Assembly: GCA_029881725.1 (NCBI GenBank)
Contig: JAOUMB010000023.1
Coordinates: 1-41,800, forward strand
Direction: 5' to 3'
Length of the DNA: 41,800 nt
Origin: Nitrospirota bacterium
GTDB taxonomy: Bacteria > Nitrospirota > JACRHL01
Shown here: one piece after another, positions 29,220-35,476 of the stretch
How the letters are laid out: each line of letters starts with the position of its first letter
Numbering within the stretch: position 1 is the stretch's first letter
Made by a program: the position numbers and the translations under genes
The notes under the pieces: model-generated
What the model was told of the DNA's origin: nothing
Database searches by the model: none
The model's input: only the letters and a program-made list of their open reading frames with translations

Positions 29220-29262
29220 AACGCCGCCGGGGGAGGGCTTGGGCCATCCTACCGGCGGCGTT
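29220..29262. terminator. Shared hairpin between iscX and the convergent propeller gene
   Basis: AACGCCGCCGG (29220-29230) pairs with CCGGCGGCGTT (29252-29262), an 11-base stem with a 21-base loop. It overlaps the last codons and stop of the minus-strand propeller gene (stop 29249-29251). The T tract is short (GTGTTTCC), so termination may be partial or rho-assisted. Confidence 0.6.
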
Positions 29263-31069
29263 GTGTTTCCTGCCACTCAATGATCGTGCCGCCGTCACCG
29301 ACCAGGCGCATTCCATTGCCGTTGGCCTTGATTCCCCACAGGCTTTGCCCGGTAAACGGCACGGTTTCGATCTGCTCGCCGGTGATTTTCAGAATGGTGC
29401 CGAAGTCGCCCGCGGTCCACGTAGCCCCCTGAGGCCCGTCCGCCACCGCCATCAACGACAGCCCACCCTGGCCCAGTCGCCTCCAGGAGTCCCCTGACCA
29501 CCGGTATATCACTCCCAGAGCGCCCACGGTCACGCCGCTGTCGGATATGGCGGCCAGTTCCTCCCCCCCCGGGGTCGGAGCCCTGGACCATTGGCCATTC
29601 AGGTAGTGATAGGCGATACCCTCCTCACCCACCACCCAAAAATCGTTCGGGGAGGCTCCGCCGATACCGTTCAGGGTGCCCTGAATCCGTTCCTGCATGG
29701 GCCACCAGCCGTCGCCGTTCCATGCCATCACCAGCCCTTCGCTGCCCACCGCCACGGCCGCATGGCCCCACGTGCGAATGGCCTTCACAACGCCGACGCG
29801 CGGCGGCGGAACCGACTTCCAGCCCGCCGTATCTCCCACCCATACCCCATCGGGGCCGGCTACCAGGGCGCGTCCATCGGCCAGGGCGCCCAGCGCCATC
29901 AGGTGCCCCACCGGCCCTGACGGTCCGGGGGCTACCGGCGTCCAGCCGGCCCGGTCGGAATGCAGGATGGTGGCGTTCAAGCCCACCGCCCAGTCGCCAT
30001 CCGTGGCGAGCAGGTCGGAATGGGTTCCCTTGATCACCGGCAGAATTCCCTTTTCAAAGGTTCCGGACAAAATCGTTCCATTGTCCCCCACCAGCGTGGC
30101 GACGCGCTTTTTCCGCTCGCTCCATCCACCCCGGATTGCCTGACCGGTGCCGGACGCCGCTCGTACCCAGAATGCGCCATTGTGGTGGAACAGGGTGCCG
30201 TCGTCTCCCGCCACCCACACGTCGTCGTTAGCGGTGCCCCACACCCAGCGCAGCAGCGCGTTGGTGTCCGGCTTGTCGGTGCGCCAGGTGTCCCCCATTT
30301 TGCGCACTACGGTGCCGCCATCGCCCACAATGTATACGTTGTCCGGCCCGGTTCCCCACACGGACACGAAGTGCGCCTGCACCCCCACGTCCACCGGCTG
30401 CCAGCGGGAGCCGTCGTAATGAACGACGACTCCGCGCCCCCCGACCGCCCACACGTCGGTGGCGCTGGAACCCCACACGCCAAAAAACAGGTTGTCGGTG
30501 CCGCTCTCCTGCCGCATCCAGCATTTTCCGTCCCAGTGAAAGATCACCCCCCGGTCCCCCACCGTAAACACGTCGTTCGGGGCGGAGCCCCAGATGCCGT
30601 TGAAGTCGTTGCTCACCCCGGTGGGCTGATCCCACCACAGGCGGCCGTCGAAGTAGAGCACGCGGCCGTTGTAGCCGGTGACAAATACATGTGTATCGTC
30701 TGCAGCCCATGCCCCGGACAGATAATCCGTGACCCCGGTGTTGACTGATTCCCAGGTGCGTCCCTTTTTTTGCAGGATGCGTCCCTTGTCGCCCACTGCC
30801 CAAATGGTTTTTGCGCCGCCGGTCACCCCCAGCAGGTGGTCTCCCTGGGGCAGGGGGTTTTTCCAGGTGAACGCCTCCGGGTCGGCCTTCAGCAGCGGCA
30901 GTGGGGAAGGTGCGCAAACGCCCACCGGCATGGTGAGTACCGGGGCCTGTCGTAACGCGGCCTGCCACCCGTCCTGGGCGCCGGCTGGCCCTGAGGTCAA
31001 TATGCAGGTCAGCAGGGCAAGGGCAAAAAAACCCGTGTGGCGAAGGGCGCGAAACTGGGGGTGGGGCAT
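29249..31069 (-). CDS. Exported beta-propeller protein
   Basis: 606 residues with a signal peptide (RHTGFFALALLTCILTSGPA) ending near AGAQ. About ten to twelve short blades share the theme WG-(S/T)-x-x-DVW-V-G and HYDG, for example NGIWGSAPNDVFTVGDRGVI, FGVWGSSATDVWAVGGRGVV and RWVWGTANDDVWVAGDDGTL. This resembles YCF48/BNR-like propellers. The ATG at 31069 has AGGAAAGG nearby. It is divergent from the respiratory operon, 165 bases away. The function is unknown; a periplasmic or surface assembly or binding role is plausible. Confidence 0.82.
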   Translation of the reverse strand: MPHPQFRALRHTGFFALALLTCILTSGPAGAQDGWQAALRQAPVLTMPVGVCAPSPLPLLKADPEAFTWKNPLPQGDHLLGVTGGAKTIWAVGDKGRILQKKGRTWESVNTGVTDYLSGAWAADDTHVFVTGYNGRVLYFDGRLWWDQPTGVSNDFNGIWGSAPNDVFTVGDRGVIFHWDGKCWMRQESGTDNLFFGVWGSSATDVWAVGGRGVVVHYDGSRWQPVDVGVQAHFVSVWGTGPDNVYIVGDGGTVVRKMGDTWRTDKPDTNALLRWVWGTANDDVWVAGDDGTLFHHNGAFWVRAASGTGQAIRGGWSERKKRVATLVGDNGTILSGTFEKGILPVIKGTHSDLLATDGDWAVGLNATILHSDRAGWTPVAPGPSGPVGHLMALGALADGRALVAGPDGVWVGDTAGWKSVPPPRVGVVKAIRTWGHAAVAVGSEGLVMAWNGDGWWPMQERIQGTLNGIGGASPNDFWVVGEEGIAYHYLNGQWSRAPTPGGEELAAISDSGVTVGALGVIYRWSGDSWRRLGQGGLSLMAVADGPQGATWTAGDFGTILKITGEQIETVPFTGQSLWGIKANGNGMRLVGDGGTIIEWQETQRRR

Positions 31070-31147
31070 GGTGGAATCCTTTCCTCGTGTCTGTCGTTTG
31101 TATCCCGCCACCCCTCTTCCGGTCAACGGCGGCAAGGGGGCGCCCGC

Positions 31148-31234: not shown

Positions 31235-31597
31235 GTGTCGATTACGATGCGCGCCGCAGTCATCCTGGTGTGTGGTTTGGTAATGTCTGGCGGGATTTTT
31301 TCCGTGCCTGCCCATGCCGGACCCAACGCCAAGATTCTTATCGAGCGAAAGGGATGCCTGGTGTGTCACAATTTGAACGGCAAGGGGGGGCGCAAGGGAC
31401 CTCCCCTTCAGCACGTGGCCGCATGGAGTGATCCGGAGCGGATGCGTGCGTACATCTCTGATCCAAAGGGCATCAATCCGGGCTCCATCATGCCCCCAGC
31501 ACGCCTAAAGGACGAGGAATTGGACGCGATCGTCGAATATTTGCAATCTTTCAAGGACTCCGCCCAGGCGCCGGAAAACTGGCCCGGGAAAAAATAG
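31235..31597 (+). CDS. Exported monoheme cytochrome c
   Basis: 120 residues. The signal peptide is MRAAVILVCGLVMSGGIFSV plus PAHA, the heme motif is CLVCH (41-45), and M86 in SIMPPARL is the likely sixth ligand. It is a small class I cytochrome. The GTG at 31235 follows a strong site (GGAAGGAGG) at 5 bases. The ATG at 31247 is too far from that site. It opens the operon of the b6-type complex, to which it would deliver or from which it would take electrons. Confidence 0.88.
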   Translation: MSITMRAAVILVCGLVMSGGIFSVPAHAGPNAKILIERKGCLVCHNLNGKGGRKGPPLQHVAAWSDPERMRAYISDPKGINPGSIMPPARLKDEELDAIVEYLQSFKDSAQAPENWPGKK

Positions 31598-31632: not shown

Positions 31633-32121
31633 ATGGACAGTATTGTGGAGGAAGGTGGTGCCACCGGAAAAGGCGCCCCGGCGGCGGTCGACGCTTCACG
31701 GCGGAAATTCATGCACCGCATGTACAACCTGGGGCTGGCCCTGTGGGCCGGTGCCGCCATGGGTACCGGTGGCTACGTGGTAGGACGTTACATCTGGCCT
31801 CGCCCGGAGGGCAGCACCACCGGTGGCGAGCGCAGTGCCTCGTTTCCGCTGGCGCAGTTGGACGAGCAGCCGATGGTGAAACTGCTGGTGGAGGGGCAGC
31901 CGGTGGGGGTGGTGCGCGTAGGGCCAGATGTGTATGCGCTGGGGCTGGTATGCACCCACCTGGGTTGCCTGGTGGGATGGAACCCGGAGGCGCGCCAGAT
32001 GGTCTGCCCGTGCCACGCCTCGCGCTTTGAAGTAACCGGACAGGTGGCCCAGGGGCCGGCTCCGGCTCCCTTAAAACGTTATGAAGCACGGATCTCCGGC
32101 GATACCGTGGTGGTGACTTGA
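31633..32121 (+). CDS. Rieske 2Fe-2S protein
   Basis: 162 residues. The N-terminal segment has the twin Arg (SRRKFMHRMYNL) before a single membrane helix, typical of Tat-exported Rieske subunits. The cluster site is CTHLGC (107-112) and CPCH (125-128): ligands C107, H109, C125, H128 with the C112-C127 disulfide. Its role is to oxidise quinol at the complex. It is closer to the b6f type by gene context. The next gene starts 2 bases after its stop. Confidence 0.95.
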   Translation: MDSIVEEGGATGKGAPAAVDASRRKFMHRMYNLGLALWAGAAMGTGGYVVGRYIWPRPEGSTTGGERSASFPLAQLDEQPMVKLLVEGQPVGVVRVGPDVYALGLVCTHLGCLVGWNPEARQMVCPCHASRFEVTGQVAQGPAPAPLKRYEARISGDTVVVT

Positions 32122-32123
32122 CC

Positions 32124-32855
32124 ATGTTTGGCTGGCGAAAAAAAGGAGGCGAGGCAGCCTACCAGGGGGAGAACGTCAAAAGCCTGCTCAACCTGGTCAG
32201 CCTATTTACCGGGGCCCTGTATGGCGAACTGGACGAGCGGCTGGACTTCCGGACTGCACTTTCGCGGGCACTCAGAAAGCCGGTACCGGCGCACGTCAAT
32301 TTCTGGTTCTGTTTCGGTGGCATCACCTTCCTGATTTTTCTGATTCAGGTGGTCACCGGGGTGGGGCTGCTGCTGTATTACCGTCCCACCGTAGAACAGG
32401 CATACCACTCGGTGGTGCATATCACCAACAACATTCCGTTCGGGTGGCTGGTGCGCGGGTTTCACCACTGGGGTGCTAATCTGATCATGATCACGGTGAT
32501 GATTCATGCCTTGCGCGTGTTTCTGTACGGTGCCTACAAGCCGCCGCGGGACTTCAACTGGGTGGTGGGTGTATTGCTCATGTTCGGGCTGCTGGTTTTT
32601 GGCTTTTCCGGCTATCTGTTGCCATGGAACGAGTTGTCGTACTGGGCCACCGTGGTGGGGGCTGAAATTCCCGGTGCGATCCCGGTAATCGGTGATGCAC
32701 TGGCCTATTTCATCAAGGGGGGCGACACCGTCGGGCAATTGGCACTGACCCGCTTTTTCGCCTTCCATGTGGTGATCATGCCGGTGGGGATGGCGGTGTT
32801 GCTGTTGATGCACTTCCTGATGATCCGCCGTCTGGGCATCTCGGGTCCGCTTTAA
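32124..32855 (+). CDS. Cytochrome b6-like protein with conserved heme c_n cysteine
   Basis: 243 residues, four membrane helices. Heme ligands are H114 and H128 (13 residues apart) and H215 and H230 (14 apart). The 14 spacing in the last helix is a b6 trait; cytochrome b of bc1 has 13. C63 in NFWFCFGGIT aligns with Cys35 of plant/algal b6, which binds heme c_n covalently, and YYRPTVEQAY further matches b6. There is no C-terminal half; that part is encoded next as subunit IV. The ATG at 32124 is preferred; the TTG at 32118 would overlap the Rieske stop. Confidence 0.93.
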   Translation: MFGWRKKGGEAAYQGENVKSLLNLVSLFTGALYGELDERLDFRTALSRALRKPVPAHVNFWFCFGGITFLIFLIQVVTGVGLLLYYRPTVEQAYHSVVHITNNIPFGWLVRGFHHWGANLIMITVMIHALRVFLYGAYKPPRDFNWVVGVLLMFGLLVFGFSGYLLPWNELSYWATVVGAEIPGAIPVIGDALAYFIKGGDTVGQLALTRFFAFHVVIMPVGMAVLLLMHFLMIRRLGISGPL

Positions 32856-32865
32856 GGAGCACGCC

Positions 32866-33642
32866 GTGGGTATCCTGCGCATTTCCGACATCATGAGCCG
32901 CAACCCGGTCTCCGTATCGCCGGACCTGGATCTGGTGGAAGCCGCGCGCCTGATGAAGCGGATGCACATCCGTTCCCTGCTGGTGAAGGACGGCGGCCGC
33001 TTTGTCGGCATCATCACCGGTACCGATCTGGCCAGCCGGGTGCTGGAGGAGGATTTGGACAAGGCGGTGCGGGTGGGCGAGATCATGAGCAGCCCGATGA
33101 TCACCATCGATCAGGAGGAGCCGATTCACCGTGCCAATGCGGAGATGATCCGCCACCATGTTCGGCATCTGGTGGTGACCGACAACGGAGATCCGGTGGG
33201 CGTGGTCTCCGCGCGCGATCTGTTGTTGCCGGAAGAGCAGGTGCCCGGTTCCATCCCGTTCTGGCCGCATCACCTGCTCAAGGAGGTGGTGGCGGCGTTT
33301 CTGATGATCGGGCTGATGGTGGCGCTGGTGTGGGTCAGTCCCGCACCCATGCTTCCCCAAGCCGACCCGTTCCTCACCCCGGAACATATCAAGCCGGAAT
33401 GGTATTTCCTGGCTGCCTACCAGTTTCTCAAGTTTGCCGAGGTGTTCCGCCCGCTTGGTGAATGGGCCCCCAAACTGCTGGGGGTGGGGTTGATGGGTGT
33501 GGTGGCGTTCCTGTTGCTGTTTTTTCCGTTTTTTGACCTGAATCCCGATCGCGACCCCCGGCGCCGTCCCATTGCCATCACCGTGGGAGTGGGGTGCACG
33601 CTGGCCTTCGTGGCATTCACCGTATGGGGGTACTACAGTTGA
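32866..33642 (+). CDS. CBS-domain pair fused to cytochrome b subunit IV
   Basis: 258 residues. Residues 6-62 and 72-124 form two CBS domains: SDIMSRNPVSVSPD, then RSLLVKDGGRFVGIITGTD, then GEIMSSPMITID and HLVVTDNGDPVGVVSARD. From about 130 it is subunit IV-like, with PFWPHHLLKEVVAAF, the quinol-site PEWY (177-180) in HIKPEWYFLAAYQFLKF, and about three membrane helices (140-158, 203-222, 235-254). CBS domains normally bind adenosyl nucleotides. A cytosolic energy-state sensor on the quinol-oxidising subunit is inferred. GTG start with AAGGAGC, following the b6 stop by 10 bases. Confidence 0.9.
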   Translation: MGILRISDIMSRNPVSVSPDLDLVEAARLMKRMHIRSLLVKDGGRFVGIITGTDLASRVLEEDLDKAVRVGEIMSSPMITIDQEEPIHRANAEMIRHHVRHLVVTDNGDPVGVVSARDLLLPEEQVPGSIPFWPHHLLKEVVAAFLMIGLMVALVWVSPAPMLPQADPFLTPEHIKPEWYFLAAYQFLKFAEVFRPLGEWAPKLLGVGLMGVVAFLLLFFPFFDLNPDRDPRRRPIAITVGVGCTLAFVAFTVWGYYS

Positions 33643-35171
33643 TCCGGTTCCTATTGCCCTTGCTGCTTGTGTTGGCCGGTCCAGCCACCGCCCTTGCGGA
33701 TGCGGATACCGGCCGGAACCTGTTTGAGGAGCGGGGCTGCCGCAATTGTCATACCTTGCACGGCAAGGGAGGCAAGGTCGGCCCGGATTTGAGTGCTGCC
33801 GGCGCGGTTGCTGGACATGACCGGTCCTGGCACGTACGTCATCTGCTGGCCCCGTCCGAGGTGTCCCCCGGTTCGTTCATGCCACCAATCAAGGACGTGG
33901 ATGACGTCGAGCATCTGGCCGATTTTCTGATCACCCTCAAAGGTACGGCCGGGGCCGCTCCCGAACCGCCCCCTTTGGGGACGTCGGTGCAGCCCAACCT
34001 TCATCCCGGCGACGTGGTGATAACGGATGCGTTGCCCGCCGCCGGGCCCCCCGCGCCGGAATCGGCCAAGCCCAAGCCCGTGGCGGCCACCCCCGTGTCA
34101 CGTGGCGATGCCGCGCGTGGGCAAGAGTTGTTTGAGGGCAGTGGTTGTCGCAGCTGCCATCAACTGAATGGCGACGGGGGACAGGTGGGTCCCGATTTGA
34201 CTGATGCCGGGTTGGTGTCCGGGCACGACGAAGCCTGGCACGTCCGTCACCTACGGGCTCCCGCCGAGGTTTCTCCCGGTTCGTTCATGCCGCCCGTTGC
34301 GGATGAACAGGACGCCATGGATCTGGCTGCGTTTCTCATCACCCTGAAGGGCACCGGGGCGACCGGCACCCCACGACTGAAGCCCAAGCCGGTCTCAATG
34401 CAACCGGACCCCGCATCAAAGGCGGTGTTCAATGCGCCGAGGCCGCCGTCCCCACAGGACGCGCAGGCCGTGGTCCGGGGCCAGTCGGTGTATGCCGCCA
34501 AGGGGTGTTCCGGGTGTCATACGGTGCGTGGCATCGGCGGCTCCCTGGGTCCGGACCTTACCTTTGAGGGTGAGGTGGCGGAGCATACTGGTGATTGGCA
34601 CCGGGATCATCTGCGCCGCCCTTCGTCTGTTACCCCGGGATCGACCATGCCGCCGTTTCAGATGGAAGATGGGGAGATGAGCGATCTGGTTGCCTACCTG
34701 CTCAGTTTGCGCCATCTGGCGGCCGATCGTACCCTGACCGCGGAGATGTCCGGGCGTTTTATTGCCCTGGGTACCCGGCTGGCCGTTCTTCAGGAGCGGG
34801 TGGAGCACGCCCGCCACGGAGGACGAAATGTGGACGACCTGTCCGTGCGTCTGTCCGAAGCATGGACGGAAATCGGCGCGGTGGAGGAGATGATGCGCCG
34901 CCAGGAAGTGACTGGGGCGGATCAGAAAATCGTCGCAGCCGAGGAGTCCGCTACCGGGCTGGAGTTGGTGCTCACCGAATTTGAGCAGCAACTGCGGGAC
35001 CGGACCCGCTTTGTAATGGGTTCCCTGGGGGCGCTGCTGGTAGTGTGTGTACTGTTGTTGGGCAAGATTCGTCTGCTCAACCGGGAGTGGTGGATGGAGC
35101 AGGAGGCAGAAGGCGGCTACGCCTGGCGGCGTCCCGCGCTGGAAGCGGCTGAAGCGGAGAAGGACTCGTGA
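33639..35171 (+). CDS. Membrane-anchored triheme cytochrome c with coiled-coil region
   Basis: 510 residues. A signal peptide (FLLPLLLVLAGPATALA) is followed by three cytochrome c domains with CRNCH (34-38), CRSCH (170-174) and CSGCH (290-294), and probable Met ligands M81, M217 and M337 in SFMPP/STMPP. Pro-rich linkers separate them. Residues about 375-455 are helical with coiled-coil character, then a membrane helix (VMGSLGALLVVCVLLLGKI) and a short charged tail. TTG at 33639 overlaps the preceding stop (TTGA); ATG at 33624 is the alternative. It could take electrons from the Rieske head. Confidence 0.87.
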   Translation: MIRFLLPLLLVLAGPATALADADTGRNLFEERGCRNCHTLHGKGGKVGPDLSAAGAVAGHDRSWHVRHLLAPSEVSPGSFMPPIKDVDDVEHLADFLITLKGTAGAAPEPPPLGTSVQPNLHPGDVVITDALPAAGPPAPESAKPKPVAATPVSRGDAARGQELFEGSGCRSCHQLNGDGGQVGPDLTDAGLVSGHDEAWHVRHLRAPAEVSPGSFMPPVADEQDAMDLAAFLITLKGTGATGTPRLKPKPVSMQPDPASKAVFNAPRPPSPQDAQAVVRGQSVYAAKGCSGCHTVRGIGGSLGPDLTFEGEVAEHTGDWHRDHLRRPSSVTPGSTMPPFQMEDGEMSDLVAYLLSLRHLAADRTLTAEMSGRFIALGTRLAVLQERVEHARHGGRNVDDLSVRLSEAWTEIGAVEEMMRRQEVTGADQKIVAAEESATGLELVLTEFEQQLRDRTRFVMGSLGALLVVCVLLLGKIRLLNREWWMEQEAEGGYAWRRPALEAAEAEKDS

Positions 35172-35476
35172 CCCGGCCGGAAGACACGTCGGAGCGGCGC
35201 CGACGGGCGCGCCATTTTGCCATCTCTTGGCTGGTGGCCGTGCTGATGCTGGTGATGTTGGCGGTAACCTTTGGCTTTGGAGCCCTGCTTCTTGGCTACG
35301 TGGCCCGCATTGCCAATAATTCGGAACTGGCGTTCCAGTCCGTCTGGCACGTATGGGTGGCGGTGCCGCTGGGCCTGCTCGTTTGCGGCGGAAGCCTGTG
35401 GTTGTTCGGCTACGGGGTGCTGATCCTGAGTCGGGTGCTTACCGCCTCGCGCAGGCTGGTGAAAGAAAGGGCTTAG
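35168..35476 (+). CDS. Small membrane protein of the respiratory operon
   Basis: 102 residues with two membrane helices, about 17-45 (FAISWLVAVLMLVMLAVTFG) and 63-88. The N-terminus is charged (TRPEDTSERRRRARH). I recognise no family. It begins with GTG overlapping the triheme cytochrome stop by 4 bases, so it is part of the complex operon and may be a small subunit or assembly factor. No terminator is obvious after it. Confidence 0.75.
   Translation: MTRPEDTSERRRRARHFAISWLVAVLMLVMLAVTFGFGALLLGYVARIANNSELAFQSVWHVWVAVPLGLLVCGGSLWLFGYGVLILSRVLTASRRLVKERA

Follow-up and report, generated by a model that had tools for sequence, protein, structure and literature searches.

The window analysed here is the whole 41,800-nucleotide stretch of contig JAOUMB010000023.1 from a Nitrospirota bacterium. 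It contains an operon in which the genes of a c-type cytochrome, a Rieske protein, cytochrome b6, a subunit IV carrying two CBS domains at its N-terminus, and a triheme c-type cytochrome follow one another, a small membrane protein being the last member (Table 1). Read directly from the sequence, the fusion gene (32866-33642) is a single uninterrupted frame of 258 codons with a GTG start; upstream of it, as far as the in-frame stop at 32821, no other start codon occurs. The two tandem CBS domains score above the Pfam cut-off (PF00571, 9e-29, 100 bits, two stretches within residues 6-121), and residues 165-255 match the Cytochrom_B_C family (PF00032) at 2e-15. The subunit IV part has three membrane helices, at residues 135-157, 200-222, and 235-257. 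The first-pass annotation had described this gene as one continuous frame with a good ribosome site, encoding two CBS domains followed by a subunit IV with PEWY at 177-180, and both the sequence and the Pfam matches bear this description out.

Table 1. Features of the operon and of the fusion gene (positions in the window).
Feature	Position	Strand	Remarks
Monoheme c-type cytochrome with signal peptide, operon gene 1	about 31247..31597	+	PF00034 3.4e-10; start set at signal peptide
Rieske iron-sulfur protein	31633..32121	+	PF00355 7.7e-14
Cytochrome b6, 245 aa	32118..32855	+	PF00033 2.3e-57
Ribosome-binding site AGGAG	32855..32859	+	6 nt 5' of the fusion-gene GTG; sequence read directly
CBS-CBS-subunit IV fusion gene	32866..33642	+	258 aa; full length kept in 15 other genomes
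CBS domain 1, residues 6-60	32881..33045	+	Pfam PF00571; ribose-phosphate motif G48-I-I-T51-G-T-D54
CBS domain 2, residues 70-121	33073..33228	+	Pfam; R100-H101-L-V-V, G112-V-V-S115-A-R117-D118
Flexible linker, residues 122-131, CBS pair to first membrane helix	33229..33258	+	pLDDT <50 at 122-125 and 127-131 (AlphaFold2)
Subunit IV (PetD-like) part	33256..33639	+	PF00032; PetD match from PetD residue 30
PEWY of the quinol-oxidation site, P177-E178-W179-Y180	33394..33405	+	sequence
Three-domain c-type cytochrome with C-terminal membrane helix	about 33624..35171	+	PF00034 x3, 1.5e-28; overlaps fusion-gene end
Small membrane protein, last operon gene	35168..35476	+	kept in three relatives of the window's family

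The cytochrome b of the operon is divided between two separate genes, cytochrome b6 (four helices, with the hemes) and subunit IV (three helices). The cytochrome b6 gives an ungapped match to that of Synechocystis (7r0w_I, 1.6e-66), and its Cys65 (nt 32310-32312) aligns with the Cys that binds heme cn (ci) in the VN-F-x-C-x-GG segment of 7r0w_I. The features of a b6-type complex that were looked for are present, i.e., a split cytochrome b, PEWY in subunit IV, the heme cn Cys, and a Rieske protein in the operon. No cytochrome f gene is found in the operon, where class-I c-type cytochromes are encoded instead, and the subunit IV part scores 46.2 bits against the NCBIfam PetD model TIGR01156, the cut-off of which is 127.05. 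With a score so far under the PetD equivalog cut-off and no cytochrome f, the complex does not qualify as a photosynthetic b6f sensu stricto. A gene on the reverse strand (29249-31135), oriented divergently to the operon, encodes a secreted-looking, beta-propeller-like protein of 628 aa with repeated W-G-x-x-x-x-D-V-(F/Y/W)-x-V-G-D-x-G motifs.

The gene order of the operon is the same in the relatives belonging to the window's family (f1), as far as their contigs extend, and the c-type cytochrome 3' of the fusion is the same neighbor in f1. A one-domain form of it is found in a class of Nitrospirota represented by G010 (f8), where the arrangement is different. While in f1 the fusion gene lies within the Rieske/b6 operon, the f8 locus for cytochrome c, Rieske protein, and cytochrome b6 lacks a subunit IV (six loci checked), and the fusion is located elsewhere, followed by a c-type cytochrome with a C-terminal membrane helix and, in the two genomes with the upstream side read, downstream of tig-clpP-clpX. 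The cytochrome b6 of f8 shares 62-66% identity with that of the window, and the heme cn cysteine is kept both there and in a Nitrospinota MAG (G397). In f8 no other protein gives a strong PF00032 match, which makes the fusion the sole b6-type subunit IV of the genome, and since the b6 loci lack this subunit, the fusion must serve that b6. The possibility of an accessory duplicate subunit IV is rejected for f8 on the same grounds. The f1 genomes and most of those of f8 encode, in addition, a second and distant cytochrome b/subunit IV pair that lacks CBS domains. From the gene content, the fusion is the dedicated subunit IV of a b6-type complex in both f1 and f8.

Two further observations concern the f8 loci. 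The fusion and its cytochrome c come just after tig-clpP-clpX at L123:9879-11381 and L125:3227-4912, such that the respiratory operon is split in more than one genus, and a hemerythrin gene lies directly 3' of cytochrome b6 in the split operon at L186:5635-6186 and L188:5492-6040.

The fusion is found in all four f1 genomes, the other three proteins being 66-69% identical to that of the window, and in all ten f8 genomes (six genera, 49-52% identity over the full length). It is also present in two MAGs of the Nitrospinota phylum (G397 and G480, 45-46% identity). The first-pass annotation had called for a search for other such fusions, and full-length examples are thus available in 15 further genomes. 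The 14 Nitrospirota and two Nitrospinota fusions all have the same single frame with no internal stop, the genomes involved all appearing to be draft assemblies or MAGs. This agreement among 16 separate genomes rules out a frameshift, a read-through, or a misassembly of two genes, to which we attach a practically negligible probability. The full-length recurrence in 13 more Nitrospirota and two Nitrospinota genomes means that neither chance nor a frameshift accounts for the fusion. It had been foreseen that close homologues might have the two parts as separate genes, the present frame being due to a sequencing error; no homologue in the fusion clade has such an arrangement. The fusion is therefore confirmed as a genuine protein, conserved in a deep-branching bacterial group, and not an assembly artefact.

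The 14 Nitrospirota fusions form one clade both by the subunit IV half (99/94) and by the CBS half (92/86). A single origin of the Nitrospirota and Nitrospinota fusions is possible, not being rejected by these sequences (AU p = 0.395). Unfused subunit IV proteins of another family of the window's phylum (f2), of Nitrospinota, and of Schekmanbacteria are 41-60% identical (41-47% for f2, where the CBS part is missing). The survey covered 396 genomes of the home phylum and 77 of the Nitrospinota-type phylum. No fusion was found among 395 genomes of the Malonomonas phylum (Desulfobacterota-type) at E<=1e-35, or among four Schekmanbacteria genomes, and a scan of viral contigs gave no relatives. Among 392 genomes of Planctomycetota type and 400 of Chloroflexota type, no match at all passed the strict threshold of E<=1e-32, so these are weak negatives. 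Among the best 80 subunit IV or CBS loci of the genome collection, 79 have no fusion, with misses possible because the pattern scan also passed over the f8 and Nitrospinota fusions. The portion of the open-access literature that was consulted contains no apparent description of a CBS domain fused to a cytochrome b, bc, b6, or complex III subunit.

In an alignment of 28 sequences PEWY is invariant; the motif reads PEWF in f8 and PHWY in the two Nitrospinota MAGs (L225:64-876 in G397 and L227:6859-7638 in G480). The latter change, from Glu to His at a Qo motif that is otherwise near-invariant, possibly reflects an altered quinol chemistry. Both Nitrospinota fusions are followed by a cytochrome with nine CxxCH motifs, and in G397 a convergent cytochrome b6 gene adjoins.

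CBS pairs also occur as stand-alone genes at other Rieske/b loci of these bacteria. In f8 and f2, a gene of about 130 aa heads a second Rieske/b operon, beside an FAD/4Fe-4S oxidoreductase gene. The cluster at L194, L195, L196, and L197 (f8) and at L204, L205, and L206 (f2) consists of the CBS pair, the GltD-like FAD-4Fe-4S oxidoreductase, the Rieske protein, cytochrome b, a long subunit IV, and a tetraheme cytochrome c, the last of these being seen in f8. The window itself encodes, on the reverse strand (869-2977) and apart from any Rieske/b genes, a GltD-like oxidoreductase with Fer4_20 and C-terminal 4Fe-4S sites, which has the same domain make-up as that in the second operon of f8 and f2. 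In a Nitrospinia MAG (L086:2950-6378), genes for a Rieske protein, a cytochrome b-subunit IV, an octaheme cytochrome c, and a stand-alone CBS pair lie on one strand, the CBS pair coming immediately after the other genes. Among the best 80 loci mentioned above, a close CBS pair within a few kb was found only there and at the f1 fusion, the matches at L038 and L088 being weak and distant. Taken with the fused form, the stand-alone genes indicate that in this lineage CBS pairs are tied to Rieske/b complexes both in cis and as neighboring genes. A direct descent of the fused CBS pair from the stand-alone operon CBS is not supported, as the two fall in different parts of the CBS tree.

The ribose-phosphate motif of CBS domains, defined as G-h-h-S/T-x-x-D/N (PMC11172384), is found as G/A-h-h-S/T-x-x-D in both lobes of all 16 fusions. 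In the window it reads GIITGTD (48-54) and GVVSARD (112-118), and in one f1 relative (G003) Ala replaces the first Gly of the second motif. The residues G48, I49, T51, D54, R100-V104, and S115-D118 are invariant in the 14 Nitrospirota fusions, and pairwise comparisons give a dN/dS of 0.03-0.10 for the CBS part, similarly low values being obtained for the subunit IV part. A loss of the ligand-pocket residues, which would have spoken against the sensing role proposed in the first-pass annotation, is thus not seen. The structural modeling suggested there gives a CBS fold, with a pLDDT of 73-88 for the two lobes in the AlphaFold2 model (a monomer, pTM 0.44). Foldseek matches this fold to solved CBS pairs at E values of 1e-9 to 1e-11, among them PAE2072 (AMP), MJ0100 (MTA/SAM), AcuB (AMP, ADP, ATP, or Ap4A), c-di-AMP-bound OpuCA, and MgtE. 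The purifying selection on the CBS half and the predicted similarity to nucleotide-bound CBS pairs agree with a working sensor.

The closest solved relatives of the C-terminal part of the fusion are the PetD (subunit IV) chains of cytochrome b6f. Since this homology begins at PetD residue 30, the CBS pair replaces the short cytoplasmic N-terminus of PetD (residues 1-29). An earlier placement of the pair at the quinol-oxidising (Qo/PEWY) site is not borne out, because the PetD homology puts it on the opposite, quinone-reduction side. We infer from this homology that the CBS pair resides on the cytoplasmic (n) face, near the quinone-reduction site and heme cn. PetD Phe40 caps heme cn (PMC9342900), and the substitution of residues 1-29 would bring the pair near the equivalent segment. 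Two independent precedents show that such a complex can be controlled from this region: in Chlamydomonas, the loss of five N-terminal PetD residues disrupts the b6f electron transfer (PMC13287000), and in cyanobacteria PetP attaches to subunit IV at residues 18 and 24, at a distance of 16 A from heme cn (PMC9342900).

We propose that, in a Rieske/cytochrome b complex of b6 type that would transfer electrons from quinol to a c-type cytochrome, the dedicated subunit IV has acquired a Bateman (CBS-pair) module at its N-terminus. The module would lie at the helix E entrance, on the cytoplasmic face and beside the quinone-reduction site and heme cn. The most likely ligand of this module would be an adenine nucleotide. 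As the complex is expected to be dimeric and CBS pairs join two by two into four-domain discs, the two modules may form one nucleotide-binding disc over the cytoplasmic face of the dimer. Ligand binding would then move the end of helix E, or alternatively close off or expose the cytoplasmic surface above heme cn, and the turnover would thereby rise or fall with the energy state of the cell. The linker is predicted to be flexible, so the CBS module may be only loosely coupled to the membrane part. We find it reasonably probable that the fusion provides a b6c-type complex with an allosteric module of its own that responds to adenine nucleotides, the nucleotide binding, dimer pairing, and effect on electron flow being what we infer from the above features. 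More tentatively, cytoplasmic CBS discs across the dimer may gate the quinone-reduction (heme cn) side of a complex-III-type respiratory enzyme and so couple quinol oxidation directly to energy charge, the same logic operating in trans via the stand-alone CBS pairs of other Nitrospirota and Nitrospinota Rieske/b operons.

Other explanations have to be weighed against this proposal. Gene fusions to CBS domains are frequent in bacteria, and the fusion might be a chance event tolerated by the complex, with an idle CBS part. The closely related subunit IV proteins of f2 and Schekmanbacteria, which do without CBS domains, fit such a neutral origin; however, the low dN/dS of the CBS part, its retention in every genome of two lineages, and the invariant pocket residues make it highly improbable. 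It could also be argued that the CBS pair serves structure or assembly, holding the complex together as a dimer or offering a docking site to a cytoplasmic partner such as an electron-input enzyme, with no ligand-dependent regulation. CBS pairs commonly dimerise (PMC11172384), the algal PetD N-terminus acts via a partner kinase (PMC13287000), and the FAD/4Fe-4S oxidoreductase that adjoins the stand-alone CBS pair in the related operons could be such a partner. However, both ribose-phosphate motifs are invariant although the CBS parts are only ~36-51% identical between lineages, and because a disc with a purely structural role could do without one of them, we consider this role rather unlikely.

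As to the nature of the signal, ATP and AMP are merely the commonest among several CBS ligands; other CBS pairs bind SAM/MTA, c-di-AMP, NAD, Ap4A, or metals, and some bind none. The module could thus respond to something other than adenylate charge, such as SAM/MTA, a dinucleotide alarmone, c-di-AMP, NAD(H), or Mg2+, in line with the MTA/SAM-bound MJ0100, c-di-AMP-bound OpuCA, Ap4A-bound AcuB, and MgtE among its fold neighbors. On the other hand, each lobe has the G-h-h-S/T-x-x-D motif that is standard for adenosine ribose-phosphate, and its best-known ligands are AMP, ADP, and ATP (PMC11172384), and we therefore regard a different signal as fairly improbable.

The proposed adenine-nucleotide-responsive module can be compared with a number of known systems. 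Like PetD of cytochrome b6f, whose N-terminus controls electron transfer and a kinase (PMC13287000), the present protein has a three-helix subunit IV with PEWY, split from a b6 with the heme cn Cys, and PetD and PetB are the best solved relatives of the two chains. Unlike PetD, it carries a CBS pair of ~120 residues in place of residues 1-29, and the operon encodes c-type cytochromes and no cytochrome f. In the cyanobacterial b6f, PetP occupies the place expected for the CBS pair, contacting the fg loop and residues 18/24 of subunit IV close to heme cn (PMC9342900), but PetP is a small separate cytoplasmic regulatory polypeptide and not a CBS domain. The two-lobed module of adenylate-binding type with its ribose-phosphate motif resembles those of the AMPK gamma subunit, CBS-pyrophosphatase, and IMP dehydrogenase (PMC11172384), which, however, are soluble and have no electron-transfer role in a respiratory complex. 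A cytoplasmic-side Bateman module attached to a membrane protein is also found in MgtE, CLC channels, OpuA, and CNNM; these are transporters or channels, whereas the partner here is the redox subunit of a proton-motive quinol:cytochrome complex. The unfused subunit IV proteins of f2, Nitrospinota, and Schekmanbacteria have no CBS domains, the separate CBS-pair gene of f2 being at the head of the other Rieske/b operon.

The bc-type complexes are usually regarded as being controlled by the redox state of their substrates and the membrane potential, and not by a nucleotide-binding subunit. A subunit IV with a conserved CBS pair would directly link energy charge to the Q cycle, and if this is true, the respiratory step from quinol to cytochrome may be directly tuned by the energy state of the cell. 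The cytoplasmic N-terminus of subunit IV would then be a recurrent regulatory port, used for kinase control in algae and adjoining the PetP docking site in cyanobacteria. The action of energy charge on this respiratory step would now be approachable via a small soluble domain of about 124 residues.
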